Of a stretch of 64,000 bases of DNA, positions 5,231 through 49,157 are shown piece after piece. Source of the DNA: Pedobacter psychrotolerans (GTDB lineage Bacteria; Bacteroidota; Bacteroidia; Sphingobacteriales; Sphingobacteriaceae); contig NZ_SLWO01000003.1 in assembly GCF_004340665.1 (NCBI RefSeq), forward strand, positions 434,001 through 498,000. Reading direction: 5' to 3'. The translations under genes were made by a program, and so were the position numbers. The notes under the pieces were generated by a model. It searched no databases, had not been told where the DNA came from, and was given only the letters and a program-made list of their open reading frames with translations. The first letter of the stretch is position 1, and every line of letters begins with the position of its first letter.

Positions 5231-5234
5231 CTTC
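5219..5234 (+). other. Candidate attachment site at the tRNA-Arg end (attL)
   Basis: TCGTCGGGACCACTTC covers the last 12 bases of the tRNA and 4 beyond. It recurs with one mismatch at 49630-49645, with an integrase gene just inside. Tyrosine recombinases commonly use tRNA 3' ends. Between here and the integrase start (5235-5542) I see only the arm-type repeat at 5343. Confidence 0.7.
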
Positions 5235-5342
5235 CTTGGATTCAAACCAGAACATTGTCGCGCAAATCGTTGATTTTCAAGACTTTGTTTTGGTTTTTAT
5301 AACACATTAAGACCCGTTTTTGACCATTCTGAATGATTAATT

Positions 5343-5356
5343 TTAGTGAGTCGAAA
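5343..5356 (+). repeat. Left copy of a 14-bp end repeat (possible integrase arm site)
   Basis: TTAGTGAGTCGAAA is found identically and in the same orientation at 49558-49571. Each copy lies inside the element, 109 bp from the left core site and 59 bp from the right one. Position and identity suggest integrase or excisionase arm binding (inference). Confidence 0.55.
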
Positions 5357-5542
5357 ATTGACTATTTTTTGTAAAACACTGTAGGTCAGTGGATTGATTG
5401 AAACATCAAAACCAGAATTATTCCGAAATGTTCGGGTGTTGGATTGTTTTGTAAGATATTGATTTACAGCTCGTTCGACTGATGAACATCTTGATGACTC
5501 ACTGGCTCAAATGTACATTTGTTTAATTTTAAATGTATCATT

Positions 5543-15335: not shown

Positions 15336-16677
15336 TTTCTTTGGTCAGTTTTTTTAACTGAAAATTTAATTCCTCTAAAACATCAACCCTATTGTGAGCA
15401 ATATTTTCAGGAAAGTTCTTAGAAAAATCAACAAAAGTTTCAGCCACAAAAGTTATCCTACTTTGAAGTTCTGCAATTCTATGAAGTTCAATCTGATAAC
15501 TTTTCTCCGTATAAATAACTTCTGGATAAGTAAGGGCAATAAGATGCAAAGACGGATTTTGTTTTAACGTCTCCAAAATTACCGATGAGATGTGCTTATC
15601 CAAGAAACTAAACCCAATTGTGATCAATAACGTATTCTCAACACGAAGAGATTGCTGAAACCTAGCCATCATCTCAAAATAGGGTTGTTCGTAGGAATGC
15701 TCATATTTGCTATCCTGAGGAAAAACCATTACTCTTTTGGAAACATCTATTTCGCCGTCTGTTTGTTCAATGTCACCGTCTACATGCTTCCAGTTGAGAG
15801 ATCCATGCATTTTGAACAAATAAAACAATTTAGGAATTGTACTATCCTTTTTATCTTGTCGATTGTGCCGAGTTTCTATAATGTCATAATCAAAATATTT
15901 TCCATTAAAAGTTCTGGGGCTAGAGAATGTGAATCCATCAATAACGGTAAATTTCTCCCTAGCAGCAGACTGCTCAAATAATGTGTCATAATTTAAAGTG
16001 AATATTTTTACTCTAGGAAATTTTTGAGGTCGTAAAACTGCCTTTGTTAAAAACTCAATATGCGGAGCATTATCTGGCAATTTTAAGTCACAGAATTCTG
16101 CAATTATTTTTCTCGCGGTTAAAATGTCATCGTCGAGCTGTTTTTCTGACTCAACTTTATTTTTCATGCCAGCGATTGATAAGAGCGCTTCTAAATCTTT
16201 AACAATATTATCTGAATCAAAACTGCCATCTTCTTCAAGTTTGGAATATTTAGTTGCTTTAATCAATCTAGTCAAACACGCTAAATCCACAGTTTCCATT
16301 TTCTGCCATAAACCCGCCATTGTCAAGCCGACATTTTCCTTACCTACACCAACTGACGAGCCGGCTCCAGACAAAACAACTAAATTCTCAATTTCATTAT
16401 ATTTACCTTTCAGAAGGGACTTGTAATAATCCCTTTTGATTTTATCTCCATAAGCGAGGAGACCAATACTCGGTTCAACGGGAACCATATCCGCTGAATT
16501 TATAGCTTTGCCGTTTGAATCTTCTTCAAATAATTCTATTTTGCCGTCGCTATATATCACCTGAAGGGTCTTTAAGGTATATTCTGCTTTGCCTTTAATT
16601 ACTTCTTTTTCATAATTTAAGATTACTGTTTTATTCTGATTTTTCAGAATGGTCATTGGAGCATCAGATTTAGACAT
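15328..16677 (-). CDS. SIR2-domain NADase of a SIR2-HerA defence pair
   Basis: A 449-aa protein whose SIR2 fold shows LVVLSGAGSSVGVG (GAGSS at 104-108), IFTLNYDTLFEQ (N229, D231) and LFKMHGSLNW (H291), the residues that bind and hydrolyse NAD+ in defence SIR2 proteins. About 95 residues precede the domain (a beta-rich region reading IYSDGKIELFEED). The C-terminal part (TLLITIGFSFLDKHISSVIL) closes the fold. It is translationally coupled to the HerA gene. Expected role: NAD+ depletion leading to abortive infection. Confidence 0.85.
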   Translation of the reverse strand: MSKSDAPMTILKNQNKTVILNYEKEVIKGKAEYTLKTLQVIYSDGKIELFEEDSNGKAINSADMVPVEPSIGLLAYGDKIKRDYYKSLLKGKYNEIENLVVLSGAGSSVGVGKENVGLTMAGLWQKMETVDLACLTRLIKATKYSKLEEDGSFDSDNIVKDLEALLSIAGMKNKVESEKQLDDDILTARKIIAEFCDLKLPDNAPHIEFLTKAVLRPQKFPRVKIFTLNYDTLFEQSAAREKFTVIDGFTFSSPRTFNGKYFDYDIIETRHNRQDKKDSTIPKLFYLFKMHGSLNWKHVDGDIEQTDGEIDVSKRVMVFPQDSKYEHSYEQPYFEMMARFQQSLRVENTLLITIGFSFLDKHISSVILETLKQNPSLHLIALTYPEVIYTEKSYQIELHRIAELQSRITFVAETFVDFSKNFPENIAHNRVDVLEELNFQLKKLTKENV

Positions 16678-20957: not shown

Positions 20958-21932
20958 ATGTATATCAATATTACGGATAATAAGGAAGCCAGCAACAAGG
21001 GTAGCAGCGGTGGTCTGGTAAATTACCTGGAAAAGGAGAACCGTACGGAGGATTTAAAGCAGCCGGAACTATGGTTCAATGGAAACCGTCAGGATGTGGA
21101 GCCGTATGAAGTACGCCGGGCATTGGATGGAAACAATGCAAAACTCGGGCGGCATGAGGCTAAGTTTTTCCTGATCAATATCAGCCCAAGCCAAAAGGAA
21201 CTAGAGCATTTAAGGAAATCGGTTGGGGATCCTGATATGAAGAATGTGCTGAAAGTATATACAGAGAAAGTAATGGATGAATATGCAAAGAACTTCAGAC
21301 GCCCTGGGATTGGTAGCAATAAGGATCTGCTCTGGTTTGGGAAAGTTGAACGCAACCGGTACTACAGCCATAAGGATGCAGCGGTTAAAGATGGTAGCCG
21401 GAAGCGTGGAGAAAAAAAGAGTGGAAACCAGCTGCATATACAGGTAATCGTCAGCCGCAGGGATATCACTAATAGAATCAAGCTCAGTCCTATGAACAGT
21501 TCGAAAGGCAGAAACGCTGAGCACTCAAAAAAAATGGGGCAGTTTGACCGGATGGCTTTTAAGCAATGTGGGGAGCGCTTGTTTGATAGTCAGTTCGGCT
21601 TTGAGCGTAACCTGAGAGATACGCTTGCTTATGCCAATATCTTAAAGAATGGCACTTTACAGCAGAGGGAGCAACTCGACATTTTGCAAGAGGCGTCTTT
21701 GAAAAATTACCAGAGCGGGTCTTTGGTTAATCAACTTGCTTTAGGTGTCGCTGAGGGAATTTTTTCTTCTGTTGGCAACATGCTCGAATCTACCGGTAAA
21801 ACCGTAGGCGAATTTTTGGAAGTTTTGATGGAGCCATTATATATTCCGGATATCGCGTCTGATACTATTGAAGAAGCAGAAAAGCGAAGAAGGAGAAAAG
21901 CAAGGCAACAACAGCAGGGTATGCAGCGTTGA
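20958..21932 (+). CDS. Relaxase-type mobilization protein (DUF5712, BtgB/BfmB-like)
   Basis: A 324-aa protein. The N-terminus (MYINITDNKEASNKGSSGGL) and the central GNQLHIQVIVSRRDITNRIK are features of the DUF5712 mobilization nucleases of Bacteroidota, which are thought to nick oriT. The LHIQVIVSRRD strand resembles the histidine motif of MOB relaxases. The C-terminus is basic (KRRRRKARQQQQG). No coupling protein or type IV secretion genes are present, so transfer would need a helper element. Confidence 0.72.
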   Translation: MYINITDNKEASNKGSSGGLVNYLEKENRTEDLKQPELWFNGNRQDVEPYEVRRALDGNNAKLGRHEAKFFLINISPSQKELEHLRKSVGDPDMKNVLKVYTEKVMDEYAKNFRRPGIGSNKDLLWFGKVERNRYYSHKDAAVKDGSRKRGEKKSGNQLHIQVIVSRRDITNRIKLSPMNSSKGRNAEHSKKMGQFDRMAFKQCGERLFDSQFGFERNLRDTLAYANILKNGTLQQREQLDILQEASLKNYQSGSLVNQLALGVAEGIFSSVGNMLESTGKTVGEFLEVLMEPLYIPDIASDTIEEAEKRRRRKARQQQQGMQR

Positions 21933-31921: not shown

Positions 31922-32233
31922 ATGTTTTCAAATATAACAATAAAAGATAAAAAGGACAAATATGTCCTAACATTAATTCTTTTATATTTTGACTTTAGTT
32001 CTGTGGGAAAACAGTATAGAGATCAGCCGTATTTAGAAGCCGTTGGACGAAAATTAATTGAAATCAGGGAGAAACAAGGTATCACTCAGGAAAAGCTTGC
32101 CGAACTTACTAAATTTGATACTAGACAAATTGGACGAATAGAAAGGGCCGAAACAAATACCTCTATTAGTATGATTAAAGCAATAGCAGATAAGCTCAAT
32201 ATAGGTGTTGATGAAATGCTAAATATCAAGTAG
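31922..32233 (+). CDS. XRE-family helix-turn-helix regulator
   Basis: 103 aa. The C-terminal 65 residues are a complete Cro/CI-type domain: LEAVGRKLIEIREKQGITQE, KLAELTKFDTRQIGRIERAE, SISMIKAIADKLNIGVDEML. The first 35 residues are hydrophobic and unlike the family, so a later start is possible. Target unknown; it stands between the nutrient operon and the Druantia-like block. Confidence 0.82.
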   Translation: MFSNITIKDKKDKYVLTLILLYFDFSSVGKQYRDQPYLEAVGRKLIEIREKQGITQEKLAELTKFDTRQIGRIERAETNTSISMIKAIADKLNIGVDEMLNIK

Positions 32234-32954: not shown

Positions 32955-34118
32955 TTAGACGGCTTCAGTGGCTGGTTTGCGCTTCCGCTTTCTGACCAGC
33001 ACACCTGTTGAGTGAAGAAATTTTGCCATCGCTTCCGCCATCGCCCTCGCGAGCGGCACGGGGACACCATTGCCGATCATTTTGAATTTTTTGGTCATCG
33101 GCACTTCCGCTGAAAGCTGATATTCATCCGGCACACCCTGGATGCGCAGAGTCTCCCGGACTGAAAGCCGACGGTTCAAATACGGATGCAAGTGCACTTC
33201 ATTATTGCCATAACAGGCCGTGGGACTGTAACGGTATCGATGGAGCCTTTTGAATGAAGGCCTAGTAGTTTCCCCCTCTTTAATAGCCATTAGCCGTTCT
33301 GGCGGGAGCCTAAAATTAAAATATTCATTTGCATTAGCAGTTATCGCTTCCTCTCCTTCCTTTACCAAGCAATCCTCCACGCATAGTTCTATGGGCAGCT
33401 TTTCAGGCTTAATCGGCTGCCCGCCAAAATCGCTGACTAGGGACCAAGGGAATTTAGTTTCTGCGCCATGGTATTTCTCGTTCAAAGGAAATGGGAACCA
33501 CGGTCCGTCCAGCGCCTTAGCAATCATCTTGCTCGTTAAACCCTTTTTGCGTAGCCCTACAAAAAATACCCGTTCTCGGGACTGCGGTACCCCAAAATCC
33601 AGGGCATTGAGTACAGAATAATCGATAAGGTATTTCTTGCCGACTTTTTTAAGCAATTCAAACAGAAAGGCCTTGGACCCGACATTCCTGATAAGTCCGG
33701 TGACGTTCTCCATGATGAAAAAAGTTGGCTTGAGTTCTAGCACTTTCTCCAAATACACTGCGGTCAGCTTCCCTCTCTCGCCGGCAAAGCCTTCCATTTT
33801 TCCGTTTATCGTGAAATCCTGGCATGGCGGACCACCAATCATTCCGAAAATTTCAGGTACGCCTGATGGAAACCCATTTTGCAGGATCTCAGAGGTATTG
33901 ATATCGGTTACCGACCGTGTATCAAAAGCATGGTGACCATCCTCAATTCCGTTTGCTTTTTTCCAGCTACCCATGCCCTGTTGGTTCATCTTCGCAAAGC
34001 TGCTGTCAAATTCGTTGCTCCACACCGGAACGAAACCCGCCTGTTGGAATCCCATATCCATAAATCCCCCACCGGAATAAAAAGAAAGTATAGGAATTTT
34101 ATGTTCAGAGGCGATCAT
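32955..34118 (-). CDS. DNA (cytosine-5-)-methyltransferase
   Basis: 387 aa with the full C5-methyltransferase motif set: motif I ILSFYSGGGFMDMGFQQAGF (SAM), motif IV GGPPCQDFT with catalytic C99, motif VI ENVTGL (E137), motif VIII QSRERVFFVG, motifs IX-X RLSVRETLRIQGVPDEYQ and MIGNGVPVPLARAMA. The target-recognition region (about 190-300) gives no site. It follows the giant helicase on the same strand after 258 bp and is probably the self-marking enzyme of that defence locus (DruM-like role), though it could act alone or as an anti-restriction methylase. No type II restriction gene is adjacent. Confidence 0.9.
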   Translation of the reverse strand: MIASEHKIPILSFYSGGGFMDMGFQQAGFVPVWSNEFDSSFAKMNQQGMGSWKKANGIEDGHHAFDTRSVTDINTSEILQNGFPSGVPEIFGMIGGPPCQDFTINGKMEGFAGERGKLTAVYLEKVLELKPTFFIMENVTGLIRNVGSKAFLFELLKKVGKKYLIDYSVLNALDFGVPQSRERVFFVGLRKKGLTSKMIAKALDGPWFPFPLNEKYHGAETKFPWSLVSDFGGQPIKPEKLPIELCVEDCLVKEGEEAITANANEYFNFRLPPERLMAIKEGETTRPSFKRLHRYRYSPTACYGNNEVHLHPYLNRRLSVRETLRIQGVPDEYQLSAEVPMTKKFKMIGNGVPVPLARAMAEAMAKFLHSTGVLVRKRKRKPATEAV

Positions 34119-34376
34119 TATTATAATTATTATTCTTTTAGCAATGGCCTTTGCGCCGTTGTCTCACCAAGTGATTTTGTTGTGGGTATGTTTTAAAAGC
34201 ATTTAGATATCTGGGCCATTTCAGTCCACATGAACATCCGGAACAGCGAGGTCAAATTACTTTTAAGCTGTGAAGTCCTTCATCTTTTCCGTTTTTTGTG
34301 CTGCCAAAAGTAGTGATATCGGCTTAAATTTCAATAACTATTTTCTTATGGCAGCTGTTTAAGATTAACATTTCGA

Positions 34377-37300
34377 TTATCTACTGAGCAACTTCTCATA
34401 ACACCAGCCAGGTCTTCTGTGCAAGTTAAAACTGTCAATGACCTCAAGCTTTCCGCCGCTACTTTCAGCCTCTGTACGCAATTCGGAAAGAATTTCCTGG
34501 AACCAATTTTCTGGCTGCTGAAATTGAAGTTTCCAAAACGGATGCACGACAAGTATTATATTTCCACTGTCGGCCCGTTGGGGTATGTATGGCAATCCTT
34601 GCCTTTCCAACGGTCCCGGCAATCCGAAGCTTCTGGCAAAGTCCTGGAGCATTTTCATTGCTTGGGATTTCCAGTTCATGAGTTCGGTGAAACTAAAATT
34701 TCCGTCCGCACCGCATCGGTAATCCGTACTGCTTAAAATGCGCATCATCGATACAGCCAATTTCCAATCCAGCAAACCATGGAAACTCATATTACGGTAT
34801 ACCTTCAGGCATTCGTAACAGGCGTCTTGGCAACCTGTGGCATGTCCCGGAGCATGAATGCCCCAGAGGTAACTGTCATGCGGACTCGGGTTTATGGCCG
34901 TTTGAAGTATTGATTCGAAATCATCATGCAAACGACGCACAAAACCCGACCCGTTGGGCAATTCATCGGTGAGGATGATCTCAGCTGCGAAACGGGCGGG
35001 TTCCTCCTGGATTTTCTTTCTTAAGATATCTGCGATTTCTATTTCCGCTGGATCAACATCCAATCGGTCGGCGATGATACGCTGAAGCAAAAAAGCGGCT
35101 GAATAGTATCCAGCCCTGACACCATAGCTTTGGGCAACACGTGCCCTGGCGTCCCCGGCTTCGCTGACCATATTCAAATCCAGTGACGAATTGGTCCACC
35201 CCGGAGCGATCCGGAGCACCTCAGTGGTTTTACTGCTGGCTATGGCAATGATCTCTTCTTCGCTTTGATCTACTGGAAAAACTTCCATTCTGTATCCATC
35301 CTTTAACACTGTGTTGGTAGCGTGTGCGCTGGAAAGCCATTGCTGGCTGAGGCGCTGAAGCGAATTGGCAAAGGGAAAAGTATTGCGGGTATTATACAGC
35401 CTTCCGCTGAAAAATCGGTCACCGTTGGTATTTATCCTCCAGGTCACATCTTTATCCCTGATGTCCAGTGTGGCATTGCCAATGGATACCGGGCCAGGGC
35501 CATCGCTCTGCCTGGATTCAGCAAATACAGGCGGTCGGGAAAGGATAATGCCCAAATCATCCTGGGAATCCTGCCCTTGGGACAAATCAGTACGGTAGGC
35601 CCTAGGGGACTTGAGCATCACTGGAGGCTGGTAAGCTGGACCGTCCTCAGCACATACCTGGCATCTGTTTTCTGCGGATGCGCTTGCTGCCTGGGTTCCA
35701 TATGTCCGGAAATCGCCGCAGGTTTTGCATCTGGTCATCCACCTGTTTAGGTAAAATGGCCCTGTCTGGAAATTCTGTGCGCCCGTGCCGTTAAATTTTT
35801 CAGCGAACTCAGCGGTAAAACCGATAGCGGTATGGATGGCCTTGTCCTTGGTTTTCTGGGCACCGGGTGCGAATTCGTAAATGGCCATCGCTTGGTTTCG
35901 GTCGATGGCTTGCGGCTCCATTTCGCTGGTGAGGCCATGGTATAGGTTTTTAACGGTAGTGGGCATTCCGAACATGGGCAGCAACCCGCCTTCGGCAAGT
36001 TTTTGCGCAATGTCATCGGTTGAAATCTCCTCATTGCTGATAATGCGCTGGGCATGTGCAATCATTCCTTGCGTACTTTCCAGCTCACAGACCCACTCGA
36101 CAAGCTCCGCGGAACTATCCCGGAGTTGCCTGCTCAAAAGTATTGATACCACCGTTTCCACAGTTTCCCGGTTGCCTGCTATCCAGCCAGAAAGCTGTTC
36201 CTTATACTGCTGCCATTGAACTTCGTCCGCTCCAATCGAACCAAACTGACCATGGATACCCGATTCTCCGCTGATACGGATACCTGCGGAGAGGTAAGCT
36301 CGCCTAAATATCTCTTTTGCCAAAAGCCTTTTAACGATCCTGGGCTGGTCCATAGTCAAAAACGGCGTAGGAGGGACATCATTTGTGATTTTTCCAGGAT
36401 GCAAGAAATAAAATTCATCATGGCTTCGGCCACGGCAAAAGGTGAGAATGGCTGAATAAGCTTGCCCCCGGCGGCCGGCGCGTCCGACCCGTTGCTGGTA
36501 ATTAAAACGCTGCGGAGGCATATTGGCCAGCATTACTGCCTGCAAGGATCCGATGTCTACACCAACTTCCAAAGTCGTGGTTACGCTCAGCAGGTCAATG
36601 GTTTTCACCTCGGCCATTCCCTCGGAAGGCAGGATAACATTCCTGAAGTGCCGCTGGCGTTCAAACTGGTCATCGGTCTGCCCTGTAAGTTCTTCGCAGT
36701 GCAGCCGTATGGGTTTGCGCTTCTTCACCAGTGCATGGTAAGCGAGGTAGTTTTTTTCCCAAAGATCCACGCAGGTATCTCCTCCGACAGTCAGCCTGGT
36801 CAATGCGGGACCGGATTTGACCGTACCTGCATAGGTGCATATCCCTCCGCATTCATGCAAATGCGGGCGTTTGATGAGCGGGCCGTAATACACTTGATCA
36901 CCCGGTGAGGAGACGGTCAGGTAGAGCGACTCAATGACTAACCCTTTTACTGCATCCATCACACCCATCTCCGTCAGGCATTCATATAAGGCGTCACCGA
37001 GCAGGCCAAAATCTTTGGCATGGAGTTCTGCCACATTCTGTAGCCAGCGCCTCAGCGGCGCCGGAAAGTCCCGGAAGGCCCTGATGGGTTTCTGTTCATA
37101 GTTGGAATAATTATGCCTTGATTTATGCCCGAGGATTCTTATCACACCGTTCAAAATCCCAAGGAAACGCCCTTGGGTAAAACCAAGCCTCGCTGCACCT
37201 TGATGTACCTTCAGGTTTGAAGGATCGACAGACAGATAACCAAAGCCGGAAGACTCGAAGGAATAAAACAGCTGGCCAAAGAACATTTTGGTGAGCATCG

Positions 37301-40300
37301 AAAAGGTGTTTTGCCGCAAAGCGCCGATAAAGCCACTAAGTTCTGGATTGCTTTTCCATTCCCCTGATTCAAAATCAATGAGTTCATTCCATTCCCTCCA
37401 GATACCTTGCGCAGCCCGCTGCTTGCGCAATGCGATGTCCGGCCCGGCAGGGTTCACTCCTAAACGTGCCAAGGAGACCATTAAGGGGCTGAGAGCAAGG
37501 GAAGAGGGACGGTCAACAAGTTCACTTATTTTAAAAGACCCACTCCGGATTTTATCAAGCTCACGCAGCGCGGTAGCTTTTTTTATCGCGTTTGGATGCT
37601 GGGTAGCTTCAAAAGTCAGCTCGTAAATGCTTGCATAAATATCAGCTGATTGCCTTTGGAAGTTATTTTTTGTTTCCTCGTCATTTTCATCGAATGCCTG
37701 TAAAAGTGTCCTTTGGGCAGCGATGGTTCCATGCAGTTCAATGAGCAGGGCTTCACGCAGCAGGTCTGTAAAATGGTTCCGTTCAATGCCGTTTGCCACT
37801 TGGGCCGCATCTTCTCGGCTGTCTGAAAAGACGACGAGTTTACGCTCTTCTGCTTTATCAGGCAGTTGCAGCATCAGTTCTTTGGCGAAAATCTGGCTGG
37901 TTTTGGCAAAACCGGTCCTAAATCCCCTCACCGGTGAATTCCGGCTGCGCTTGAGTGTATAATCACTGGCACAACATGGGCAAACGGCCGGCAGTGCCAA
38001 ATGGGTGTCATTCAGGTTTTGGCTTTCCAGCCATTCCTCCCTGGCCACATCAGAACTGTTATGTTCGATTTTAAAAATGTAGCCAGGTATCCAGTCTTCA
38101 GGGTGCTCCATTTCATCCGCAGGACCTGCATCGACATCTCCTGACCGTTTGTTGATTATCGCGCGCCGCCATCGGCATTCATAGCGTCGCTGGTCCCCTG
38201 GGTTGGTTAAAGGCTGGACGGTCCAGTGGTCGACGTCATTTCCAGCATTGCTTCCGATGATCTGCGTGCGATGAACAAACTGCTGCCGGCCTGCCGGCCA
38301 GAATATGCCATACTCCTGATAGGTCCGGGTTTCCAGGAGTTTTCCGGCTGTTTTCTCAGGAATACCTTCTATCTTGGGACTGGTTGGCAACAGTTCATGG
38401 ATGCCATTGCGCCCGATGGACCGGCTGCCGCCGAAAAACGTTGTCCCGCAGCTATCGCAATAAAGCAGCTCTAAAACGCGGTTTCCTATCTCAGAGCTGA
38501 TCCGCATGCTTGTATAGAGGGTTCCAGCGGTCCGTAACCCGTCTCGGTAGGTCGGCTTCCCACCTAATTCAGCCGGATCGACAGACGCCCAGAGACCTTC
38601 GATGTTCCGAAGGAAATAATGGAAACGGAACCTGGGAAGCTTGGCAGACAGGTTTACCCCATTGCCCGCCTCTTCAAAAAAGGAACGCGCAATAAGCAGG
38701 CCGCGCAAAGCGTTATGAAGCACCTGCGGGTTTGTGTCCGTGCTGAATACCTCGTCGGCATAAAAAGGACCTGGGGAAGCGTCACCTGAAATACGCACAG
38801 CTGCTACGGCCTTATAGTCCCCACATGGCGAAAATAAACGCTCCCGGAGCAATAGCCCGGGATGTGCGAGCACGCTACACAATCCTGTGGTACCGTTACC
38901 CTCAACAGGAATGGAAAATTGTTTTCCGATGGCCTGAGATAGCTGGTTGCAGGCCCCTATAAACGCTGTAGCGGAGGTGTTTCCTTCGCACTGACTAAAT
39001 GCTTCAGCGAGCATAGCAAAAGGTTCAGGGCGGAGTTTTTCACTGTCTTGCGGAAGGGTATCCACCGGGGTATTCTCACCTTTGATAATCTTAAAGGGTG
39101 CTGTTTCCCAGTCTACACCGAAAAAATCTTCCAGGAATTGTTTACTTTTCTCGCCGTCCGGAGAATCGTCCGCTACGATTGACGCGCTTGAGGCGAGGAT
39201 GCGCAGCTGGGGATCGCCGGGACGCAGGCCAAGCCTGTCCAGGACAAGGCGAATCAGGTAGGCTACTTCGGTTCCCTGGGTGCCCCTGTACAGGTGCAGC
39301 TCGTCAATAACCAGGTTAAAAATACGCTTTGGACGCTCAGCTTCCCTCTGGGATACATCAAGGTCCAAGCCCTGCAACCAATTTTTAGTCTCTTCAAAAA
39401 TACCGGAATCCACTCCCCGCATCAGCATGATGCTGAGCATAGAATAGTTGGTAATCAAAATGTCCGGAGGGGCGAGCTGCATGTCGAAACGTGAGCGCAT
39501 TTCCGAGCTGCCGGCCAAACGCTGGAAAAAAGCTTTTAGATCTTTTATCTTTTCGATCTGCTTGGCGGGACTTAACTTTATAAATTCCAGATCCTGGGGA
39601 AGCATACCTGATATGTACTCGTCCACCCTTCTTGCGGCCTCCTCAACTTTTTGGAGTTTTTGCTTCAGTTTGTTAACCTTGCGATCGTTACGCCCGCCAC
39701 TACCGTTGAACAGTCCGCCTGCAATCGGCGTAGCGCCATTATAGCGGCCAAAGTAAATAGCATTACCATGGGCCTTTTGTGCAAACCATGCCCGGGCGTC
39801 ATCTGAGTCGAGGGCTTTGCGGAGCCTGCTCATCTGGTCTTCCACCAAAGCATTCATCGGGTAGAGTATCAGTGCCCTTACGCCCGAGGGACGTACTTGG
39901 TGGGCACGCTGTGCCACCCGGCGGTCCAGGTTCTGGGACATCGGATCACAAATGTGCCTCGGGGTTAATCCGTGATTGCTGGTCCACCAGCTGTCCAGGT
40001 CCGGTGAAGGTTCACGTGCAGCGGACCAGTTGCCAAGCTCCGCGGCAAGCTGCGCAAAAAGGGGTAACAAAAAAGATTCGGTTTTACCCGATCCTGTCCC
40101 TGAAGTAATGATACAGTTGTGGCCTTCCATCGCTTCCCGCAGCATTTCTGCCTGGTGCTTGTGCAATTTACCCTCAGCTGGGAAAAGTCCTTTTTCAACC
40201 AGCCCTACAAAAAGGTTGCGCTGGCTGGCATCGAGTTTGCCTCCGAAATCTTCTTCAGCGAGTTCGCTGACTTTTTTTCCGCTGCTTACATAATCGGCAA

Positions 40301-40457
40301 GGGGTTCCATCCAGGGACTGCGATAGAGCACTTTGTCTTCATTTAGTTTATCTTCGCGTTCCTGCTCTATTCCTTCAAAAGCGGTCGCGAAGGCGGTTTT
40401 TACATAACGTATAAAATTGTCTTTAATGGTATCGAATGCACCTATAGGATCTTTCAT
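34377..40457 (-). CDS. druE: Giant DEAD/DEAH helicase with DUF1998 domain, Druantia DruE-like
   Basis: 2026 aa. N-terminal RecA domain with Walker A TSGTGSGKTES (K125), NALVEDQM, and DELH at 385-388 after an unusually long insertion; second RecA domain with TTTLEVGVDIGSLQAVMLAN and QQRVGRAGRRGQ near 1320; several Cys pairs (CDSCGTTFF, CPCC, RCKTCGDF with RCQVC); and a C-terminal DUF1998 segment with CQDACYECLKVYRN near 1875. Size and order fit DruE rather than the shorter DrmA/DrmB of DISARM. Its start overlaps the end of the 947-aa gene by 4 bp, so the two are co-translated. G+C is visibly higher than in the flanks, a sign of transfer. Confidence 0.8.
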   Translation of the reverse strand: MKDPIGAFDTIKDNFIRYVKTAFATAFEGIEQEREDKLNEDKVLYRSPWMEPLADYVSSGKKVSELAEEDFGGKLDASQRNLFVGLVEKGLFPAEGKLHKHQAEMLREAMEGHNCIITSGTGSGKTESFLLPLFAQLAAELGNWSAAREPSPDLDSWWTSNHGLTPRHICDPMSQNLDRRVAQRAHQVRPSGVRALILYPMNALVEDQMSRLRKALDSDDARAWFAQKAHGNAIYFGRYNGATPIAGGLFNGSGGRNDRKVNKLKQKLQKVEEAARRVDEYISGMLPQDLEFIKLSPAKQIEKIKDLKAFFQRLAGSSEMRSRFDMQLAPPDILITNYSMLSIMLMRGVDSGIFEETKNWLQGLDLDVSQREAERPKRIFNLVIDELHLYRGTQGTEVAYLIRLVLDRLGLRPGDPQLRILASSASIVADDSPDGEKSKQFLEDFFGVDWETAPFKIIKGENTPVDTLPQDSEKLRPEPFAMLAEAFSQCEGNTSATAFIGACNQLSQAIGKQFSIPVEGNGTTGLCSVLAHPGLLLRERLFSPCGDYKAVAAVRISGDASPGPFYADEVFSTDTNPQVLHNALRGLLIARSFFEEAGNGVNLSAKLPRFRFHYFLRNIEGLWASVDPAELGGKPTYRDGLRTAGTLYTSMRISSEIGNRVLELLYCDSCGTTFFGGSRSIGRNGIHELLPTSPKIEGIPEKTAGKLLETRTYQEYGIFWPAGRQQFVHRTQIIGSNAGNDVDHWTVQPLTNPGDQRRYECRWRRAIINKRSGDVDAGPADEMEHPEDWIPGYIFKIEHNSSDVAREEWLESQNLNDTHLALPAVCPCCASDYTLKRSRNSPVRGFRTGFAKTSQIFAKELMLQLPDKAEERKLVVFSDSREDAAQVANGIERNHFTDLLREALLIELHGTIAAQRTLLQAFDENDEETKNNFQRQSADIYASIYELTFEATQHPNAIKKATALRELDKIRSGSFKISELVDRPSSLALSPLMVSLARLGVNPAGPDIALRKQRAAQGIWREWNELIDFESGEWKSNPELSGFIGALRQNTFSMLTKMFFGQLFYSFESSGFGYLSVDPSNLKVHQGAARLGFTQGRFLGILNGVIRILGHKSRHNYSNYEQKPIRAFRDFPAPLRRWLQNVAELHAKDFGLLGDALYECLTEMGVMDAVKGLVIESLYLTVSSPGDQVYYGPLIKRPHLHECGGICTYAGTVKSGPALTRLTVGGDTCVDLWEKNYLAYHALVKKRKPIRLHCEELTGQTDDQFERQRHFRNVILPSEGMAEVKTIDLLSVTTTLEVGVDIGSLQAVMLANMPPQRFNYQQRVGRAGRRGQAYSAILTFCRGRSHDEFYFLHPGKITNDVPPTPFLTMDQPRIVKRLLAKEIFRRAYLSAGIRISGESGIHGQFGSIGADEVQWQQYKEQLSGWIAGNRETVETVVSILLSRQLRDSSAELVEWVCELESTQGMIAHAQRIISNEEISTDDIAQKLAEGGLLPMFGMPTTVKNLYHGLTSEMEPQAIDRNQAMAIYEFAPGAQKTKDKAIHTAIGFTAEFAEKFNGTGAQNFQTGPFYLNRWMTRCKTCGDFRTYGTQAASASAENRCQVCAEDGPAYQPPVMLKSPRAYRTDLSQGQDSQDDLGIILSRPPVFAESRQSDGPGPVSIGNATLDIRDKDVTWRINTNGDRFFSGRLYNTRNTFPFANSLQRLSQQWLSSAHATNTVLKDGYRMEVFPVDQSEEEIIAIASSKTTEVLRIAPGWTNSSLDLNMVSEAGDARARVAQSYGVRAGYYSAAFLLQRIIADRLDVDPAEIEIADILRKKIQEEPARFAAEIILTDELPNGSGFVRRLHDDFESILQTAINPSPHDSYLWGIHAPGHATGCQDACYECLKVYRNMSFHGLLDWKLAVSMMRILSSTDYRCGADGNFSFTELMNWKSQAMKMLQDFARSFGLPGPLERQGLPYIPQRADSGNIILVVHPFWKLQFQQPENWFQEILSELRTEAESSGGKLEVIDSFNLHRRPGWCYEKLLSR

Positions 40458-43297
40458 AGTGGCTCGTTGATGTTTTGGATTTCTATATTCAGTTTAAATT
40501 TAAACAGGTTGTCAATTATTGAGCTCCTGATGTTGCGGTAAAGGTTGAAACTACCGCTTTTCCCTTGCAGCTTTAAGCTTGCAAAGTCCGGTGCGGTACC
40601 GGAAAGCTGGATTACAAAACGGGAGAAAAGTCTGGGCAGGGGAAGCTGGGCTGGCAAGGCAAGCGTGTCGGCATTCCGGAACAAACGGTTTGTTCCGGCC
40701 AAATTAATTGCCGGGTCGTAGGAATGTACCTTTGGTGAATAATGATGAAAAATCAGATACTTGCCCCAGTTTTTATCTACATGGTAGTAGTCTCCTTTGA
40801 TCCAGATGCCATACTCGGGGAGGTAATAAGGCCTGCACTCGATTAAGGTAAATTCCCGGTTATGGGCAACTTCCGTGCTAAATAACAGGTTCTCAGGGTT
40901 GAAGCTTTTCTGCACAATGTCCACCCCGTCCCATGAAAGGGCAGTGGGGCCGCCAATCAACATCCTACGGTAATCGTCCAAGGAAGGCAGCAACGCTTTT
41001 AACTTCAGCAAGTACCATTCATCGAATTCTACCGAAACGCTTTTGGCTATCTTTTCAAGTGTCGAGACATGCCCGCAGTGGAAACTGATGCTAACAGGAA
41101 TGAGCAGTTGCTGGTTTTTTTCAGAGGCTGGTTGAAACTCCATATTGATTTCATCAGGATACATCTTGCAATAGCCGATTAAGTCTTCCAGCAAGCCGTG
41201 TGTCCAGCAGCCGATGAGTTGCCCTTTACGTCCCTTTGAGGCGGGCAGGGTGATCAGCTTTGGTGGCAGCGGTGTGATTTTATCCTTCTGGTAATCGTAA
41301 TCAATATAGCCCAGGTAATCCAGCAGGTTTACTGCTGATTTGCGCTTTTGCAAAAGCCCCTGTGGCTCGAGGCCGAAACGTTTTCTGTGTATATACTCGA
41401 AGGCACGGTTGAATCCCGCTGTATTTGTTTGTTCAATAGTGATGAGCCAATTGAGCAGTGCCTGTTCATCAGCGGGTAGATCCGCAGTATTGCCTCTTAT
41501 CCACTTGTCGCTGGGAATAAAAGGGTTCCGGTCGGCAACACGCTCAAGGTTGGCTTCCATGAATATGGCATTACCCTGGTATCCCGGAATAGTCCCTTCA
41601 TCGGGATTTCCAAAGGCATCTTTGAAAGGAACGTTTTCATTTTTCAGCGCCAGCAGGTGAGGCCTTATAATTTCGTAAGTTTTGGCCATCTCTTCCGTCG
41701 AACCAGCTAAATGCAGGCAAAACGGTGCTCCGATCCGCAAGGATTCAGGTAGCAGCCACACTCCTCCAAGCGAGGGATGCGAGATGAGGTTTGCTGTTGT
41801 TTGATCATCCTGGTATTTTAGCACCAGCTGTTCTTCACCCTGGGCATTGATCAGGATGAACTCAGGCATGTATTGGTTGAGGTATTGGTTATGGCTTACT
41901 TTCAGACCGGTTCCTTCCCGGACGAGAATCGATTTTTGCTGTTCAACTTTCAGCATTTCAATCTCTGGATGGCCAGCCCGCGGTTTGTTGAAGCGAAAAA
42001 GCGTATAGCCAGGGGGAATACCCTTCAAACCTGACTGGTCGCGGAAACTTCCGCATTCCGCTTCAGCCCAGTTTTTTATGTTTTCAGCCAATTTGTCTTT
42101 GCAAAGCACGAACATATCATCCACTCTGGAAAGTTTGGTTGTTTCGATCCAAAAACGGCTGCTTAAGTTAAAATGTGCCGCATTGATGAATAACCTGATG
42201 TCCTTAGAACGGGACTCTGCTTTCCATTTGTAGCGTTTGTCGTAGAGAGTGATCTTTTCTTGAAATCCTAGGGCAAGGGTTTTTGACCAATTTTCATCTT
42301 GGTACAAGTCCGCTAAATCACCCAGGCAAAGGTCTGTAGGTGGTTCACTGGCAAATGCCGCGCGGTAGGAAAAGTCGATATGTCCAGGGGTGTACTCTTT
42401 GAATTGCATCCATAGTGGCACAACAGTTCCACTTAGATAGCTTCGCTCCCCGTGTTCAGTAGTAAATTCGAACTGCTCGCCGGTCCAGCGAGAAAACTCG
42501 GACTCAACAAGTTCGGTCAGCGATTTTCCCAGGCCGCTGTCCCCTTGGATAAGGGTGATGGCATCCGCACGCAAGCCAAGCCATTGGACGCCTTTGTCAA
42601 TTAAAAGATCCTTGAAGGCTCGTTGCGTATAAAAATTTCCTGGAATCAGGCCGGCTTTGGTAAAAAAAGAGGGAAGTTTTTTTATCGTTACCGGCGGAAA
42701 AATGCACTGGGAAAGCGGTTTGACGACGAACTTCCATCCCCTGTTCCCAGTATAACCAGCCTGGAAACTCCCCAACTGTCCGTCCATATGGATATTTGCC
42801 CATTGGGAGAGCTCGTCCCAAAGGTGGTCTATGTTGCGCAGTTTGTCCCTCAGGTTTTGAAGGCGTTTTGGTTTACTGGCGATTTCGTATAATCCGTTTT
42901 CGCTGATAAAATCCTCGAGCCTGTCGTAGTAGTTATTGGTGTTGTAACCGTCCTGGATTTCGATAAGCGGCAGGATGCTGAAAACCAGGTAGCTTAAGTA
43001 AGGGGGGAATTGCTGGTCATAACCGCTTAGTCGCTGGTGACGGCCTGCACGCCATTTTATCGCTACCTGCGCGGCCTTTTCAAAGATGTTATCTGCTCCA
43101 TTAACACCTACAGGTCCTTTTTGCAGTCCTTCCAGGAAGTCCGACCATATTTCTTTGTCCTGGGTTTCTCCTGAAAAGTATATCCGGCCCATAGATATAA
43201 TCTCTGTTTTGGAGATAAATAGCCTGACCTGGCGGCCGTATTGGCCGGGGTTAAAAAAGTGTTTGGCAAGCAGGTCATTCCACACTAGGAATCTCAT
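40454..43297 (-). CDS. Large P-loop protein, probable Druantia partner (DruH-like)
   Basis: 947 aa, first gene of the operon with the giant helicase. The one clear motif is a P-loop-like LIQGDSGLGKSLTELVESEF near residue 250; no convincing Walker B follows. The N-terminus (NDLLAKHFFNPGQYGRQVRL) and middle have no recognised domain. Druantia type III consists of DruH plus DruE, and the size and position fit DruH; I cannot confirm family membership by eye. It could also be a partner specific to this group. Confidence 0.6.
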   Translation of the reverse strand: MRFLVWNDLLAKHFFNPGQYGRQVRLFISKTEIISMGRIYFSGETQDKEIWSDFLEGLQKGPVGVNGADNIFEKAAQVAIKWRAGRHQRLSGYDQQFPPYLSYLVFSILPLIEIQDGYNTNNYYDRLEDFISENGLYEIASKPKRLQNLRDKLRNIDHLWDELSQWANIHMDGQLGSFQAGYTGNRGWKFVVKPLSQCIFPPVTIKKLPSFFTKAGLIPGNFYTQRAFKDLLIDKGVQWLGLRADAITLIQGDSGLGKSLTELVESEFSRWTGEQFEFTTEHGERSYLSGTVVPLWMQFKEYTPGHIDFSYRAAFASEPPTDLCLGDLADLYQDENWSKTLALGFQEKITLYDKRYKWKAESRSKDIRLFINAAHFNLSSRFWIETTKLSRVDDMFVLCKDKLAENIKNWAEAECGSFRDQSGLKGIPPGYTLFRFNKPRAGHPEIEMLKVEQQKSILVREGTGLKVSHNQYLNQYMPEFILINAQGEEQLVLKYQDDQTTANLISHPSLGGVWLLPESLRIGAPFCLHLAGSTEEMAKTYEIIRPHLLALKNENVPFKDAFGNPDEGTIPGYQGNAIFMEANLERVADRNPFIPSDKWIRGNTADLPADEQALLNWLITIEQTNTAGFNRAFEYIHRKRFGLEPQGLLQKRKSAVNLLDYLGYIDYDYQKDKITPLPPKLITLPASKGRKGQLIGCWTHGLLEDLIGYCKMYPDEINMEFQPASEKNQQLLIPVSISFHCGHVSTLEKIAKSVSVEFDEWYLLKLKALLPSLDDYRRMLIGGPTALSWDGVDIVQKSFNPENLLFSTEVAHNREFTLIECRPYYLPEYGIWIKGDYYHVDKNWGKYLIFHHYSPKVHSYDPAINLAGTNRLFRNADTLALPAQLPLPRLFSRFVIQLSGTAPDFASLKLQGKSGSFNLYRNIRSSIIDNLFKFKLNIEIQNINEPL

Positions 43298-43625: not shown

Positions 43626-44486
43626 ATGGAAAAATTAAACTGGCAAGAAGATAAAATCACCTTCACGCAGGCTTACTACACAGCAATCAATTCCTGTAAT
43701 ATTGAACTTTTCGGGCTCATCAAAGAAAATTATGATGCCTTGAGCGGGGTGTATCCCATGATAGAATACGTGATTGAGCGGATCAATGCCGTTACGGTCC
43801 TGATTAACGAAGAGGTGTTGTGGGATGCAGATATTATTGTCCGTTCGGCGTTGGAGACGTTGGTTAAGTTTGTGTTTCTTGCTGATGCCAGTGAGTCTGA
43901 ACGTCCCGGTTTGCTCGATGAATTCTGGAATGGCCTATCGGAAGTTTACAGTGTTAAACTTCACGAACAGGCAAAAAAAAACCTGAGGCATACCGCAGAA
44001 AGCGAGGTTCACCGCCTGGCCTATTCCCCGCTTGTGCTATCCGAGGAGGAAGTGAGCCGACTGAGGACAAAATGGCCAAAGGCTGAGCGGACCAAACTTG
44101 AACAAAAATGGTCCTTCAGCGGGATCGTGAATTTCCTGTCGCAGAAAAATAAGGGTACCCCCATGGAGGTATTCGAATTCCTCACCCACTCTTACCGCAT
44201 GTCCAGCCACCTGGCCCATGGCGATGAGATGGGGATTTCACTTATCCAGGAGCGAAGGTCCCGAACTGCGGAGGAAGAGTTGGCCGTACATGCAGCTCAC
44301 TATGTGAGGCTGCTAAGCGACTGCTTTTCCTATTGCCTCTTGACTGCTATCTATACCACCCAGTACCTAAAGGTGTCTCCTGATTATTTCTTGGAACTCG
44401 GTTCTTCCCTTTCCGAACTTAACGAACTTATGGAGCAGTATCATAAAGTTCCCTTCGATGATAAGATGTATGATAAGTTCAGGTAA
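43626..44486 (+). CDS. DUF5677 protein with HEPN-like motif
   Basis: 286 aa, all helical. The segment VRSALETLVKFVFLADASE and the later HSYRMSSHLAHGDEMG fit DUF5677. The latter has R191-x6-H198, within the Rx4-6H spacing of HEPN ribonucleases, so an RNase role is possible (inference). It is divergent from the Druantia-like operon and convergent with the 348-aa gene. DUF5677 genes are common in defence islands. Normal length. Confidence 0.72.
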   Translation: MEKLNWQEDKITFTQAYYTAINSCNIELFGLIKENYDALSGVYPMIEYVIERINAVTVLINEEVLWDADIIVRSALETLVKFVFLADASESERPGLLDEFWNGLSEVYSVKLHEQAKKNLRHTAESEVHRLAYSPLVLSEEEVSRLRTKWPKAERTKLEQKWSFSGIVNFLSQKNKGTPMEVFEFLTHSYRMSSHLAHGDEMGISLIQERRSRTAEEELAVHAAHYVRLLSDCFSYCLLTAIYTTQYLKVSPDYFLELGSSLSELNELMEQYHKVPFDDKMYDKFR

Positions 44487-45927: not shown

Positions 45928-47682
45928 ATGCTAAATCAAAAAATAGTGCTATCTTATTATGACTTTCACCGGAAAAGCTTTCAGGGAATGCCCACGGAAC
46001 TTTTTAAAGGTGTTGACAAGGAGTTTGCATTCGGGTTAATTGATCTGCTAAACCGTGGAGAGAAAGAATATGGTTCAACAGCTGGGCTCCGCGCTTTTCT
46101 AGCAAGGTGGTTTTCAGCTTCCAATCTCAATGCCTTCCGGGGTTATGACGACAAAATTGAAGAAATTTCTTCGCGAAAGGTGTTTGAAGGAGCCGAACTT
46201 GTAGTTTTCAACCAGCATTCGACCTTGGCATTTATAGAATTCTTACTGCTTTACTTGAAAGATAATACTCCGGTAAGTCTGATTAAACCTACGAATGAGC
46301 AAATGGAAATTAATTTGTTGGATGCTTATCTGGTGATCAACCAGGGTTTAAACAGTTCGAAAAACGGCTTTGAGGATTTTCAAAAGAGCCATCCCCGGGA
46401 GGCCGTTTACTGGCTTTCAATGAACAAGGCATTCCAATATGCAGATTTGCTCGACAGAAATGCTCAGGAGCTCTTCATCACCGAAATCGGTAAAGCAACC
46501 ATGCTTTTTGGACTCCTTGAAACGCATGTGCTAGCCAAGCCGATCCTGGATACCTTTTTGGCTAAATATGATTGTTTACATTGGACAGATTATCTTAAGG
46601 CAATCGCTGGCATGAGTGCCATTGGTTTTGACACAGCAAACCATTCAGGTAACACGCTGGTTGAAATTGACCCGCAGCTTCCTTTTTACCCCACTTGCCT
46701 GAAAATCCTGGACCAGGTTTCTGTTGACATTGAAATGGCCGTCATCAGTGAAGATTTTCTTTACTTGCGCAACCATCCCATCCATAGGCAATGTGAAAAT
46801 AAATATCAGATTCTCGCCAGGCGCTTCTTTGTTGAAAAGATCTTCAGGGCACTTTATTTCGAGTTACGTGAGATCAATGCTACCCTTGGCATAATGAGTG
46901 ATACCAAATTCAGGACGGTCTTCTACACTAGTAGTTTTTCTGAAAATACGCTATTTTATGCAGTGCTCGATAAAATCTTCGAGCAATCACCGTTCAAAAA
47001 GCAGGGTTTGGAAATGGAAATGATAGATCGTGGTTTCGGTGCTTCAGACTATATTGCTTTCCATAAACAAAGCGTTTTTATCTTCGAATCAAAAGATATT
47101 TTGATTAAAAAGGAGGTTAAAGCCAGGCTTTTTATTCCCGAAATGTATGATGAATTCCGGAAAAAATTTTATAAGGACGGAACTGCAGATAAAGCGGTAC
47201 TTCAACTTGCCAGGAATGTAAAAAAAATGATTGAAGGAGGTTACGGAAAGTTCATGTTCAGTCCTTCAAAGTGCCGTTTTATCTATCCTGTGGTGGTTGT
47301 GCATTCAGAGGCTTTCAACATATTGGGACTCAATCAGATTTTAGCCCACTGGTTCAAGGAAGCTTGCATTGAAGTGGGCCTCAGTGCTAAGCAGCGCTAC
47401 AAAATCAAGCCTGTCGTGATTATTGATGTGGGTACGTTGCTTTATTTCCAGGATAAGATCAACAAGAACAAAGTTGGTCTGGGGTCGATCATCAGCCACT
47501 ATGCCCGCAGGACTAAAATGCCGCTGGATCCGGCGAGGTCGCCTAATCATATTACCATTTTCCAGGAACGTTACATGATCCCCTTTTCACTGTTTCTGGA
47601 CAGGCGGATAAAACAGATCAAGCGGTCAGGCACGCCTTTGAGTATTCTGTCAAAGGTCAGGAAAATATTTCCTGGATTTTGA
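45928..47682 (+). CDS. Predicted PD-(D/E)xK-fold nuclease-like protein
   Basis: 584 aa. The one recognisable site is ASDYIAFHKQSVFIFESKD: D374, then E387-S-K389 on the next strand, the spacing of PD-(D/E)xK nuclease cores. The N-terminal 350 residues are helical with no recognised domain (perhaps sensor or target-binding), and a short C-terminal region follows. Located among defence genes, it may cut invading DNA or RNA (inference). Not matched to any named system. Confidence 0.66.
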   Translation: MLNQKIVLSYYDFHRKSFQGMPTELFKGVDKEFAFGLIDLLNRGEKEYGSTAGLRAFLARWFSASNLNAFRGYDDKIEEISSRKVFEGAELVVFNQHSTLAFIEFLLLYLKDNTPVSLIKPTNEQMEINLLDAYLVINQGLNSSKNGFEDFQKSHPREAVYWLSMNKAFQYADLLDRNAQELFITEIGKATMLFGLLETHVLAKPILDTFLAKYDCLHWTDYLKAIAGMSAIGFDTANHSGNTLVEIDPQLPFYPTCLKILDQVSVDIEMAVISEDFLYLRNHPIHRQCENKYQILARRFFVEKIFRALYFELREINATLGIMSDTKFRTVFYTSSFSENTLFYAVLDKIFEQSPFKKQGLEMEMIDRGFGASDYIAFHKQSVFIFESKDILIKKEVKARLFIPEMYDEFRKKFYKDGTADKAVLQLARNVKKMIEGGYGKFMFSPSKCRFIYPVVVVHSEAFNILGLNQILAHWFKEACIEVGLSAKQRYKIKPVVIIDVGTLLYFQDKINKNKVGLGSIISHYARRTKMPLDPARSPNHITIFQERYMIPFSLFLDRRIKQIKRSGTPLSILSKVRKIFPGF

Positions 47683-47750: not shown

Positions 47751-48266
47751 CTATCGGCTGGCTGGGTCATTTTTTTTTGTCAGCACAAAATACAAATCGA
47801 CGATGCTCCCGATGTTTGCCAGGATGATGTGTGTGAGCATAAATGTATCCAGGCTGAAAAAGATTTTTCCGGTCATGCTTCCGGCCTGGAAAACAAAGGG
47901 ATAGATAAGATTGAACAATAGTAATATACTTTCGATCAGGATGATGTAAGCGGTCCTGATCAACAGCATTTTGAAAATACTGACTTGTTCGCTGTACAGC
48001 ATAAAGTCGGTATTGAGTTTCTTGATTTCATCAATATTGGGGTTGGAGGCGGTAATGAGCAAAGTAAACATCGCCACAGTAAAGCCAACAAGCAGGCTCA
48101 GCACACTGATGGTATTGTTGACGAACTGGTCTATCAATTTTGGTAAATCCCCGCATGAGGGAAAATAGAGCAGCCCGGCACAGACCAGCAGTGAAAGCAA
48201 GAAATTAACCACCAGGGATGTCCTGCTGGTGGTTTTGAAATTTTCAATGAGAACCAATACCCACAT
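47751..48266 (-). CDS. Four-helix membrane protein, second gene of a two-gene operon
   Basis: 171 aa with four hydrophobic segments (VVNFLLSLLVCAGLLYFP; TISVLSLLVGFTVAMFTLLI; TAYIILIESILLLFNLIYPF; FMLTHIILANIGSIVDLYFV). It follows the 294-aa gene by 6 bp. A small four-helix membrane protein with a soluble partner resembles the Kiwa layout (KwaA/KwaB), but gene order differs and no sequence match can be claimed. It could be an effector, an anchor or an immunity protein. Confidence 0.7.
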   Translation of the reverse strand: MWVLVLIENFKTTSRTSLVVNFLLSLLVCAGLLYFPSCGDLPKLIDQFVNNTISVLSLLVGFTVAMFTLLITASNPNIDEIKKLNTDFMLYSEQVSIFKMLLIRTAYIILIESILLLFNLIYPFVFQAGSMTGKIFFSLDTFMLTHIILANIGSIVDLYFVLTKKNDPASR

Positions 48267-48272
48267 AATCGG

Positions 48273-49157
48273 TTATAAATTTTTAGTAAACGCCTGTAGT
48301 GCCCGAAGCATTTCCTTTGACTCTACTTCCCCGGTAACACCATTGACGGAAACATCGATGCTGTCAACCATTTCCATAAAAGAGGTATCCAAGGCAACCT
48401 CAGTGTCATTTTCATCACGTCCCTCGATGCGGACTTTTGATATGGAGTCGTTTTTCTTGGAGGAGAAACTGTTCCAAAAATCAATTGCTGTTTCGCTAAT
48501 ATCTTCCCGCTGCTGCGCTTTGACGGTCAATTCCAGGTCTCTTTGAAGGTTAGTTGTACGATTGGAGAAATTTAGGCAGTTGCTACCCAATAACTTTTTA
48601 TCAAAGAAAATACGTGCCGTTTTAATCCTTTTCATTGACTGTATCTGTGCCAGGAAATCCTTTCTTCCGAGTTTTAATAGCTTCACGCTGAACCCTTTCC
48701 GCTTGCCCTGGGCATTGAGGTGTTTTTTTGTGAAGGCGTTGATATACTCAATGATCTGATTCACTGTGAGACCATGGCCGTTGATTTCGACAACCAGAAA
48801 CAGTTCAGCGGGAGTGAGTTTGAAGGCAAAATGTGTTTTTTCAACGTCACCCTCAGAAAGCCTTTTCGGGCTCAACCGCTCCTCGCCTGTCTCCTTGTCA
48901 ATTAAATTCGGGCGGAAGGTATGGCGGGCACTTTTAAATAGCCCTGAGATAATCGCATGACCGTCATTATCTTTTTTGGTGGTGGCAGTTTGAAGTAGGC
49001 AAAATTTGTCTTCTTTCATTTCAAACTGTCTTTCTTTTTTGCTTAACTTTTTGACAAATGTGATGACTTCATCAATCTCGGAGAATACGCTATCCTCGGA
49101 GGTCAGCCATTTTCTTTTGTACACTGAACTGAATGATACTTTTCTGGTCTTTGACAT
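48273..49157 (-). CDS. Soluble partner of the membrane protein (294 aa, unrecognised)
   Basis: Begins MSKTRKVSFSSVYKRKWLTS. No known domain is certain; FAFKLTPAELFLVVEINGHG and SVKLLKLGRKDFLAQIQSM are beta-alpha segments, and the C-terminal 70 residues (KVRIEGRDENDTEVALDTSF) are beta-rich. The layout recalls DUF4747-like phage-response proteins, but this is weak. First gene of the operon with the membrane protein. Last operon before the right end of the element; 49158-49557 holds no gene. Confidence 0.68.
   Translation of the reverse strand: MSKTRKVSFSSVYKRKWLTSEDSVFSEIDEVITFVKKLSKKERQFEMKEDKFCLLQTATTKKDNDGHAIISGLFKSARHTFRPNLIDKETGEERLSPKRLSEGDVEKTHFAFKLTPAELFLVVEINGHGLTVNQIIEYINAFTKKHLNAQGKRKGFSVKLLKLGRKDFLAQIQSMKRIKTARIFFDKKLLGSNCLNFSNRTTNLQRDLELTVKAQQREDISETAIDFWNSFSSKKNDSISKVRIEGRDENDTEVALDTSFMEMVDSIDVSVNGVTGEVESKEMLRALQAFTKNL

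Follow-up and report, generated by a model that had tools for sequence, protein, structure and literature searches.

A Druantia locus of Pedobacter psychrotolerans on the border of types II and IV lacks the DruK nuclease of its close relatives

Introduction

Type II Druantia has been described as DruM-F-G-E and type III as DruH-E, as far as the consulted text of that source goes (PMC13316683). Type IV was defined as E-F-L without DruM or DruG, with 168 instances in 11 phyla, and the same source, in the text available to us, reports type II from Proteobacteria only (PMC8565338). Here we analyse a Druantia locus of Pedobacter psychrotolerans (assembly GCF_004340665.1, contig NZ_SLWO01000003.1) that lies in a window of 64,000 nt, the whole stretch of DNA that was analysed, to which the coordinates of our locus refer. 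It fits neither type II, as it has no DruG, nor type IV as described, as it carries DruM. Instead it stands on the border of the two: type IV parts (E, F, L) are combined with a type II methylase, without DruG and without DruH. An original prediction, made from the sequence without database searches, had proposed a mixed subtype or a variant outside the current types. That this is a Druantia with DruM outside the published types holds, but the mixture is one of types II and IV, and not the III/II hybrid that had been envisaged. Neither is it a one-off, since the II/IV mixture is usual in Bacteroidota; what sets the locus apart is a missing nuclease, DruK. A 258-nt gap between DruE and DruM, which the original prediction had overlooked, lies where the relatives carry this gene. 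Such a natural loss of DruK with the rest intact lets the need of Druantia II/IV for its own nuclease be tested directly, and as a natural knock-out the locus could reveal which Druantia parts are needed. Our preferred reading, to which we give a probability of about one half, is that a DruFL-DruE-DruK-DruM operon between types II and IV lost druK and kept DruM, and that the remaining DruFL-DruE pair is still active.

Results

Three open reading frames of 947, 2026 and 387 aa lie on the minus strand at 40454-43297, 34377-40457 and 32955-34118, as had been predicted, and encode in this order DruFL (a fusion of DruF and DruL, and the operon's first gene), DruE and DruM. The first two share 4 nt, which is consistent with translational coupling, where co-translation had been asserted outright, and 258 nt of AT-rich DNA on the same strand (34119-34376, G+C 0.357) separate the end of DruE from the start of DruM. 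The operon is indeed richer in G+C than its surroundings, with 0.474 in DruFL, 0.510 in DruE and 0.479 in DruM, compared with 0.34-0.41 for the three stretches of non-coding DNA that adjoin its genes. Counted per 1 kb, however, the values are 0.44-0.46 between 27 and 31 kb and 0.40-0.44 between 43 and 49 kb, so that the operon stands out only modestly from the nearest genes.

Relatives were collected by a scan with an alignment of DruE, which yielded at least 553 relatives, the best 80 of which were used as named loci (L-numbers below). A first contig scan with the single DruFL protein as query gave no match; protein scans found DruFL in 7 of 395 genomes of the phylum, 7 of 395 of the class, 9 of 399 of the family and 3 of 145 of the genus, these sets overlapping and each including our own genome. 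Profiles derived from our own sequences were run on the open reading frames of the loci. The set comprises the branch with our DruE (27 rows in the FastTree phylogeny, 26 without our own), L058, whose split DruE was left out of the tree, and 11 further loci, together 38 loci, or 33 distinct ones after five duplicates were merged. L133 and L134 have no place in the tree and were counted by homology, and three loci were left out of the 33: L144, apparently the contig of L027; L146, whose contig ends inside DruE; and L145, which has DruF without DruE.

DruK directly follows DruE in all 33 distinct loci. DruM was found in 32 of them, and in the last (L010) by reading further; 31 have the DruF-DruL fusion, the exceptions being L013, with two genes, and L044, in which no DruF was detected and where the contig begins. 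In the 36 loci that show all three genes, the start of DruK falls within a range from 58 nt upstream to 4 nt downstream of the DruE end, and 25 of these loci have a DruM that overlaps DruK, although these overlaps, taken from the leftmost starts, may be overstated. About 550 nt and an extra gene separate DruK from DruM in three loci, and L133 has its DruM 2.8 kb away from DruK and on the opposite strand. Among 30 loci that have DruF and DruL fused and over 1.5 kb of DNA past DruE, DruK is present in 24 and DruM in 25; the six lacking DruK (L038, L054, L083, L086, L096, L100) fall outside our branch. The sister locus L124, our closest relative, belongs to the same genus and possesses the complete set of four genes; it groups with our sequence in the trees of DruE, DruFL and DruM, at identities of 57%, 40% and 62.5%.

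By its PADLOC matches, DruK is a Cas4-like PD-(D/E)XK nuclease. Across 35 sequences (three of them the same gene, one of these three cut short), E134, D149, D162 and K164, the latter two forming D162-x-K164, are invariant, and Cys26, 260, 263 and 269 are retained in 34-35; by analogy with Cas4, these cysteines would bind an iron-sulphur cluster. A profile of the 35 sequences, run in six frames at maximum sensitivity, found no DruK in the spacer, around it or anywhere in the window (best E 0.22, outside the gap). Nor does the spacer hold a druK remnant when compared as DNA with 11 DruK genes (scores 21-25): against the sister's druK it scores 23, and 200 shuffles gave a mean of 21.4 and a maximum of 29. 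Elsewhere in the genome, which is rated 99.97% complete, two PADLOC models found no DruK, whereas the same search was positive in six of six other genomes with the operon. Since no DNA trace is left, the loss was not very recent. Our searches of the open-licence literature, in which some terms were swamped by other words, brought up no paper that deals with DruK or with a DruFL fusion. PADLOC-DB contains DruK models, so its authors knew the gene, and its DruF2 models of 1011 and 1030 aa extend into the DruL region, so that the DruF-DruL fusion is likewise not new.

The remaining genes show no sign of being pseudogenes, given their low numbers of private changes and the retained motifs of DruM. 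At columns invariant in all others, our sequence differs at 21 of 606 in DruE, 4 of 51 in DruFL and 1 of 114 in DruM; for the sister these counts are 18 of 603 in DruE and 2 of 49 in DruFL, and the extreme members reach 39 of 624 in DruE (L051) and 11 of 58 in DruFL (L011).

The 947-aa protein had been labelled DruH-like and P-loop-like, and neither label stood up. All ten PADLOC families that match it at E<=0.01 are DruF or DruL, with no match to DruH or DruG at that threshold. DruF4 (PDLC00054) covers residues 1-542 with 208 bits, DruL4 (PDLC00056) residues 613-911 with 111 bits, and the type II DruF model PDLC00021 matches at E 1e-56; a match to DruF or DruG was among the outcomes that the original prediction itself had named as refuting it, and the DruF match is such an outcome. 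Around the locus there is no DruG either, the five neighbouring proteins scanned having no PADLOC family at all. The sole P-loop-like string, GDSGLGKS at residue 252, occurs at that position in only one of 41 aligned DruF-family proteins (23 fused and 18 separate, selected at E<1e-60), namely in our own; relatives read, for instance, NELGQSII there, and three others have a P-loop match elsewhere, each at a different place. As this Walker A is not conserved, we regard the string as a chance occurrence and reject a P-loop NTPase identity. An inactivated McrB-like GTPase (a CnuB homologue) has been described for type I/II Druantia in the available text of a preprint (PMC12458937); our structure search neither confirmed nor excluded such a fold in DruFL.

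An AlphaFold model of DruFL from a 24-row alignment has a mean pLDDT of 82, which drops below 50 at residues 139-144, 587-606 and 857-875. The second of these stretches lies between the DruF part, about residues 1-575 (41573-43297, boundary approximate), and the DruL part, residues 609-947 plus stop (40454-41473), both assigned from PADLOC and the model. The search of the PDB gave no match showing kinship. Its best hit, to one Ig-like domain (Z 7.1, rmsd 3.1 over 90 residues, below kinship level), weakly suggests an Ig/fibronectin-like beta sandwich at residues 451-546 of the DruF part (41660-41947). No viral structure matched the model at E<=0.001, and no solved structure matched the sequence at E<=0.1. 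As a separate observation on DruF, L145 (3-4759, plus strand) encodes a DruF protein (243 bits) in the tight order AbiEi-AbiEii-DruF-465-aa protein, from which it appears that DruF may also serve in another system.

The helicase assignment of the 2026-aa protein was borne out. Pfam finds DEAD, Helicase_C and DUF1998/MZB (PF09369, above cut-off), and PADLOC identifies DruE, a YprA-family SF2 helicase. DruE2 (PDLC00014) matches residues 1-2024 with 1702 bits, a second DruE2 match reaches 1677, and the best scores of the other models are 1572 for DruE4, 534 for DruE1 and 303 for DruE3. With DruE4 and DruE2 thus outscoring DruE3 by 1270-1400 bits, the protein belongs, on these profile scores, to the II/IV branch. 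The cytosine methylase that does come after the DruE gene could also be accounted for by a DruH-DruE (type III) system into which a type II methylase had been recruited, but the matches to DruF and DruL with none to DruH, the 303 bits of DruE3 against the 1702 of DruE2 and the lack of a conserved P-loop make this very improbable.

In the modelled 327 C-terminal residues of DruE (mean pLDDT 79), the first part resembles the DUF1998 domain of MrfA (Z 10.1, rmsd 3.8 over 132 residues), and unrelated LuxS chains reach Z 5.5-6.1 on that same part. The last 99 residues (1928-2026; 34380-34676) give weak fold matches, namely I-Bth0305I (Z 5.7), FASTKD4 RAP (5.7), VRR_NUC (4.5) and FokI (4.3), several of which are PD-(D/E)XK folds. 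In an alignment of 20, the stretch that follows the near-invariant Pro257, where Vsr has its catalytic Asp, contains no conserved Asp. This absence agrees with a preprint which, in the text consulted, predicts an inactive Vsr domain for the DruE of types I and II (PMC12458937). The modelled C-terminal domain is thus perhaps PD-(D/E)XK/Vsr-like and probably inactive, and we saw no recognisable active nuclease among the remaining genes of the locus.

That a C5 methyltransferase follows the helicase was equally correct. The 387-aa protein carries Pfam PF00145, matches DruM2 (PDLC00030) at E 8e-138 and retains the usual C5 methyltransferase motifs. Upstream of it, the spacer contains a promoter-like site of the Bacteroidota type, TTG-N19-TAnnTTTG, at 34305-34334 (minus strand), oriented towards druM. 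The exact pattern occurs three times on both strands of the window against 1.67 expected, and at least three times in 19 of 100 shuffles. When spacings of 17-21 are allowed, the window holds 11 promoter-like sites, so that about 0.02 would be expected in one such gap on the same strand. This site might allow DruM to be produced by itself.

To see DruK and DruM in a wider frame we considered a branch of 43 loci, in which L010 and L015 were read further and DruM was called at E<1e-30 within the available DNA. Both genes are present in 31 loci and both absent in eight, seven cyanobacteria and L043. DruK occurs without DruM in two, L014 (a short contig) and L036; DruM occurs without DruK in one, L041, where the contig stops within DruM; and L040 is not long enough to be informative. 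Weaker C5-methylase matches lie on the other strand in L036 and L043. Searches of the whole genomes of L075, L041, L038 and L039 found DruK in none of the four, a check that covers two of the cyanobacteria with a DruK-less DruF-L-E. The co-occurrence suggests, on comparative grounds, that DruK and DruM form a cutting and protecting pair inside Druantia. In L036, a Paenibacillus locus, DruK is in two overlapping pieces (16005-16629, plus strand) with no close DruM, which is perhaps another DruK loss.

Further genes accompany some of these loci. A small stand-alone protein lies between DruK and DruM in L025 (17189-17743), L026 (17111-17671) and L079 (17159-17809); it has a Pfam AspBHI N-terminal domain, which presumably reads 5-methylcytosine, in L025, a PADLOC match to a methyl-directed restriction enzyme in L025 and L026, and a homologous sequence in L079. 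Larger relatives of it (241-422 aa) occur near six other loci. After DruE in two Proteobacterial DruFL-DruE loci, at the position of DruK in Bacteroidota, there is a UvrD/NERD-helicase-like protein (L054, 16284-17945; L096, 10530-12161).

Around our own operon, a tRNA-Arg(cct) followed by a tyrosine integrase (5159-6814, plus strand) and a DUF5712 gene (20958-21932), which we take to be of a mobilisation family, suggest the left end of a mobile island. Full-length integrases 97-98% identical occur in two of 59 other genomes of the genus searched. The tRNA-Arg 3' end is present once in the genome when up to one mismatch is allowed, and hence the far side of the island is not marked by a right-hand repeat of it. 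Closer by are a 103-aa protein that resembles transcriptional regulators of phages and lies downstream of DruM on the opposite strand (31922-32233, plus strand), a DUF5677 protein divergent from the operon (43626-44486, plus strand), and a gene pair (47751-49157, minus strand) for a 171-aa, probably membrane, protein and a 294-aa protein, which match the phage families phrog_4613 and phrog_4672, without assigned function.

A 584-aa protein (45928-47682, plus strand) contains a D...ESK stretch, read by eye, that resembles a PD-(D/E)XK site. It could be the source of a nuclease supplied in trans, as could a host recombination nuclease, the latter in line with the link of type III Druantia to RecBCD given in the text consulted (PMC13192584). 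The gene is 2.6 kb off on the other strand, has no family match in PADLOC, Pfam, NCBIfam or PHROGs, and shows no association with Druantia: homologues occur in 25 of the 399 family genomes and DruFL in 9, and ours is the sole genome in both lists. Supply in trans seems to us unlikely.

Discussion

How might such an operon work? The sequences show which genes are there and in what order, that DruK is absent by comparison with the close relatives examined, and that reading frames and conserved residues are intact; from this we infer the roles of all components as well as any continuing activity. DruFL would sense infection or select the target, DruE would load onto phage DNA and travel along it, and DruK would cleave this DNA in the intact system, with DruM, probably a protective methylase, methylating host DNA so that it is spared. 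In our own copy the nuclease would be lost and DruM kept, possibly from its own promoter, and the DruFL-DruE pair would act by blocking replication or by passing DNA to host nucleases. The DruK-less DruF-DruL-DruE of cyanobacteria, if active, would have to act likewise. Among the components, DruFL changes fastest (mean pairwise identity 0.44, against 0.54 for DruK, 0.61 for DruM and 0.67 for DruE), which might fit a sensor role. In type III, according to the text consulted, DruH, with its Ig-like domains, is the presumed sensor, DruE contributes to defence against T3 mainly through DNA engagement and not as a nuclease, and joint defence needs RecBCD (PMC13192584). An Ig-like block occurs in our DruFL as well, although by a weak match. 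A DruE without nuclease could on that precedent still work, which slightly favours an active, nuclease-free form.

The close rival is decay, in which the loss of DruK ended defence, the other three genes are intact only because that loss lies not far in the past, and DruM is an orphan methylase, like those left behind when a restriction-modification system decays. In its favour, every locus of the branch has DruK (33 of 33), losing the nuclease first would be the safe order, and L036 has its DruK in two pieces without a close DruM. Yet the frames of DruE and DruFL are open over 2026 and 947 codons, 585 of 606 and 47 of 51 invariant columns are kept, near the sister's level, and the lack of any druK trace speaks against a very recent loss. 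Decay is thus possible, and we consider continued action of DruFL-DruE somewhat more likely.

Several observations weigh against such continued action or the roles proposed for it. For each of the three genes, our branch exceeds that of the sister in length by a factor of about 1.5-2 (0.61 against 0.42 in DruE, 0.99 against 0.63 in DruFL, 0.68 against 0.34 in DruM, where ours is the longest of all), and our DruE and DruFL have the second-highest counts of private changes; relaxed constraint after the loss would also yield both. The fast change of DruFL may reflect weak constraint instead of an arms race, and its Ig-like block is not a hypervariable sensor, with a mean identity of 0.43 against 0.42-0.47 in the other main parts. 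The promoter-like site was looked for post hoc. The association of DruK with DruM includes, for L034 and L037, a methylase that lies upstream of DruF, and it stems from few independent events, as seven of the eight loci without either gene form one cyanobacterial branch. Lastly, we found no functional data on any type II or IV Druantia.

Our comparison suggests that types II and IV, as defined in the literature, divide up one continuous family. One could go further and see both as one system, in which a DruF-DruL-DruE engine gains or loses, as a unit, a restriction-modification module of DruK, DruM and, in three loci, the AspBHI-type protein; our locus would be its nuclease-free, methylase-keeping form with the engine still defending. 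We put this forward as doubtful, and found no account in the literature of what the methylase and accessory proteins do in Druantia II/IV.

Compared with the described types, the locus shares with type III only the YprA-family DruE helicase: type III has DruH and, in the consulted text of the preprint, a DruE with C-terminal PLD-like nuclease domains (PMC12458937), whereas ours has no DruH and a Vsr-like, probably inactive domain. With type II it shares DruM and DruF, and both its DruE and its methylase match the type II models best (DruE2, DruM2); type II, however, has DruG and places the methylase first in the operon, whereas ours has no DruG match and the methylase last. The DruE, DruF and DruL parts of type IV are all present, in the F-L-E order of the split loci that we read, but type IV has separate DruF and DruL and no DruM, whereas here DruF and DruL form one chain and DruM is present. 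L075 (Neobacillus sp. DY30) resembles our locus in its fused DruFL (DruL part by PADLOC), its DruE, a C5 methylase about 230 nt further on and the lack of a DruK in its genome by one model; its DruE lies on a distant branch and its methylase is nearer to other C5 families, which makes it an independent case. The Bacteroidota loci L124, L022 (Sphingobacterium siyangense) and L026 (Niabella drilacis) have the same genes, order, strand and fusion as ours, and differ in that DruK stands between DruE and DruM, in L026 together with the small extra gene, where our locus has 258 nt of non-coding DNA.

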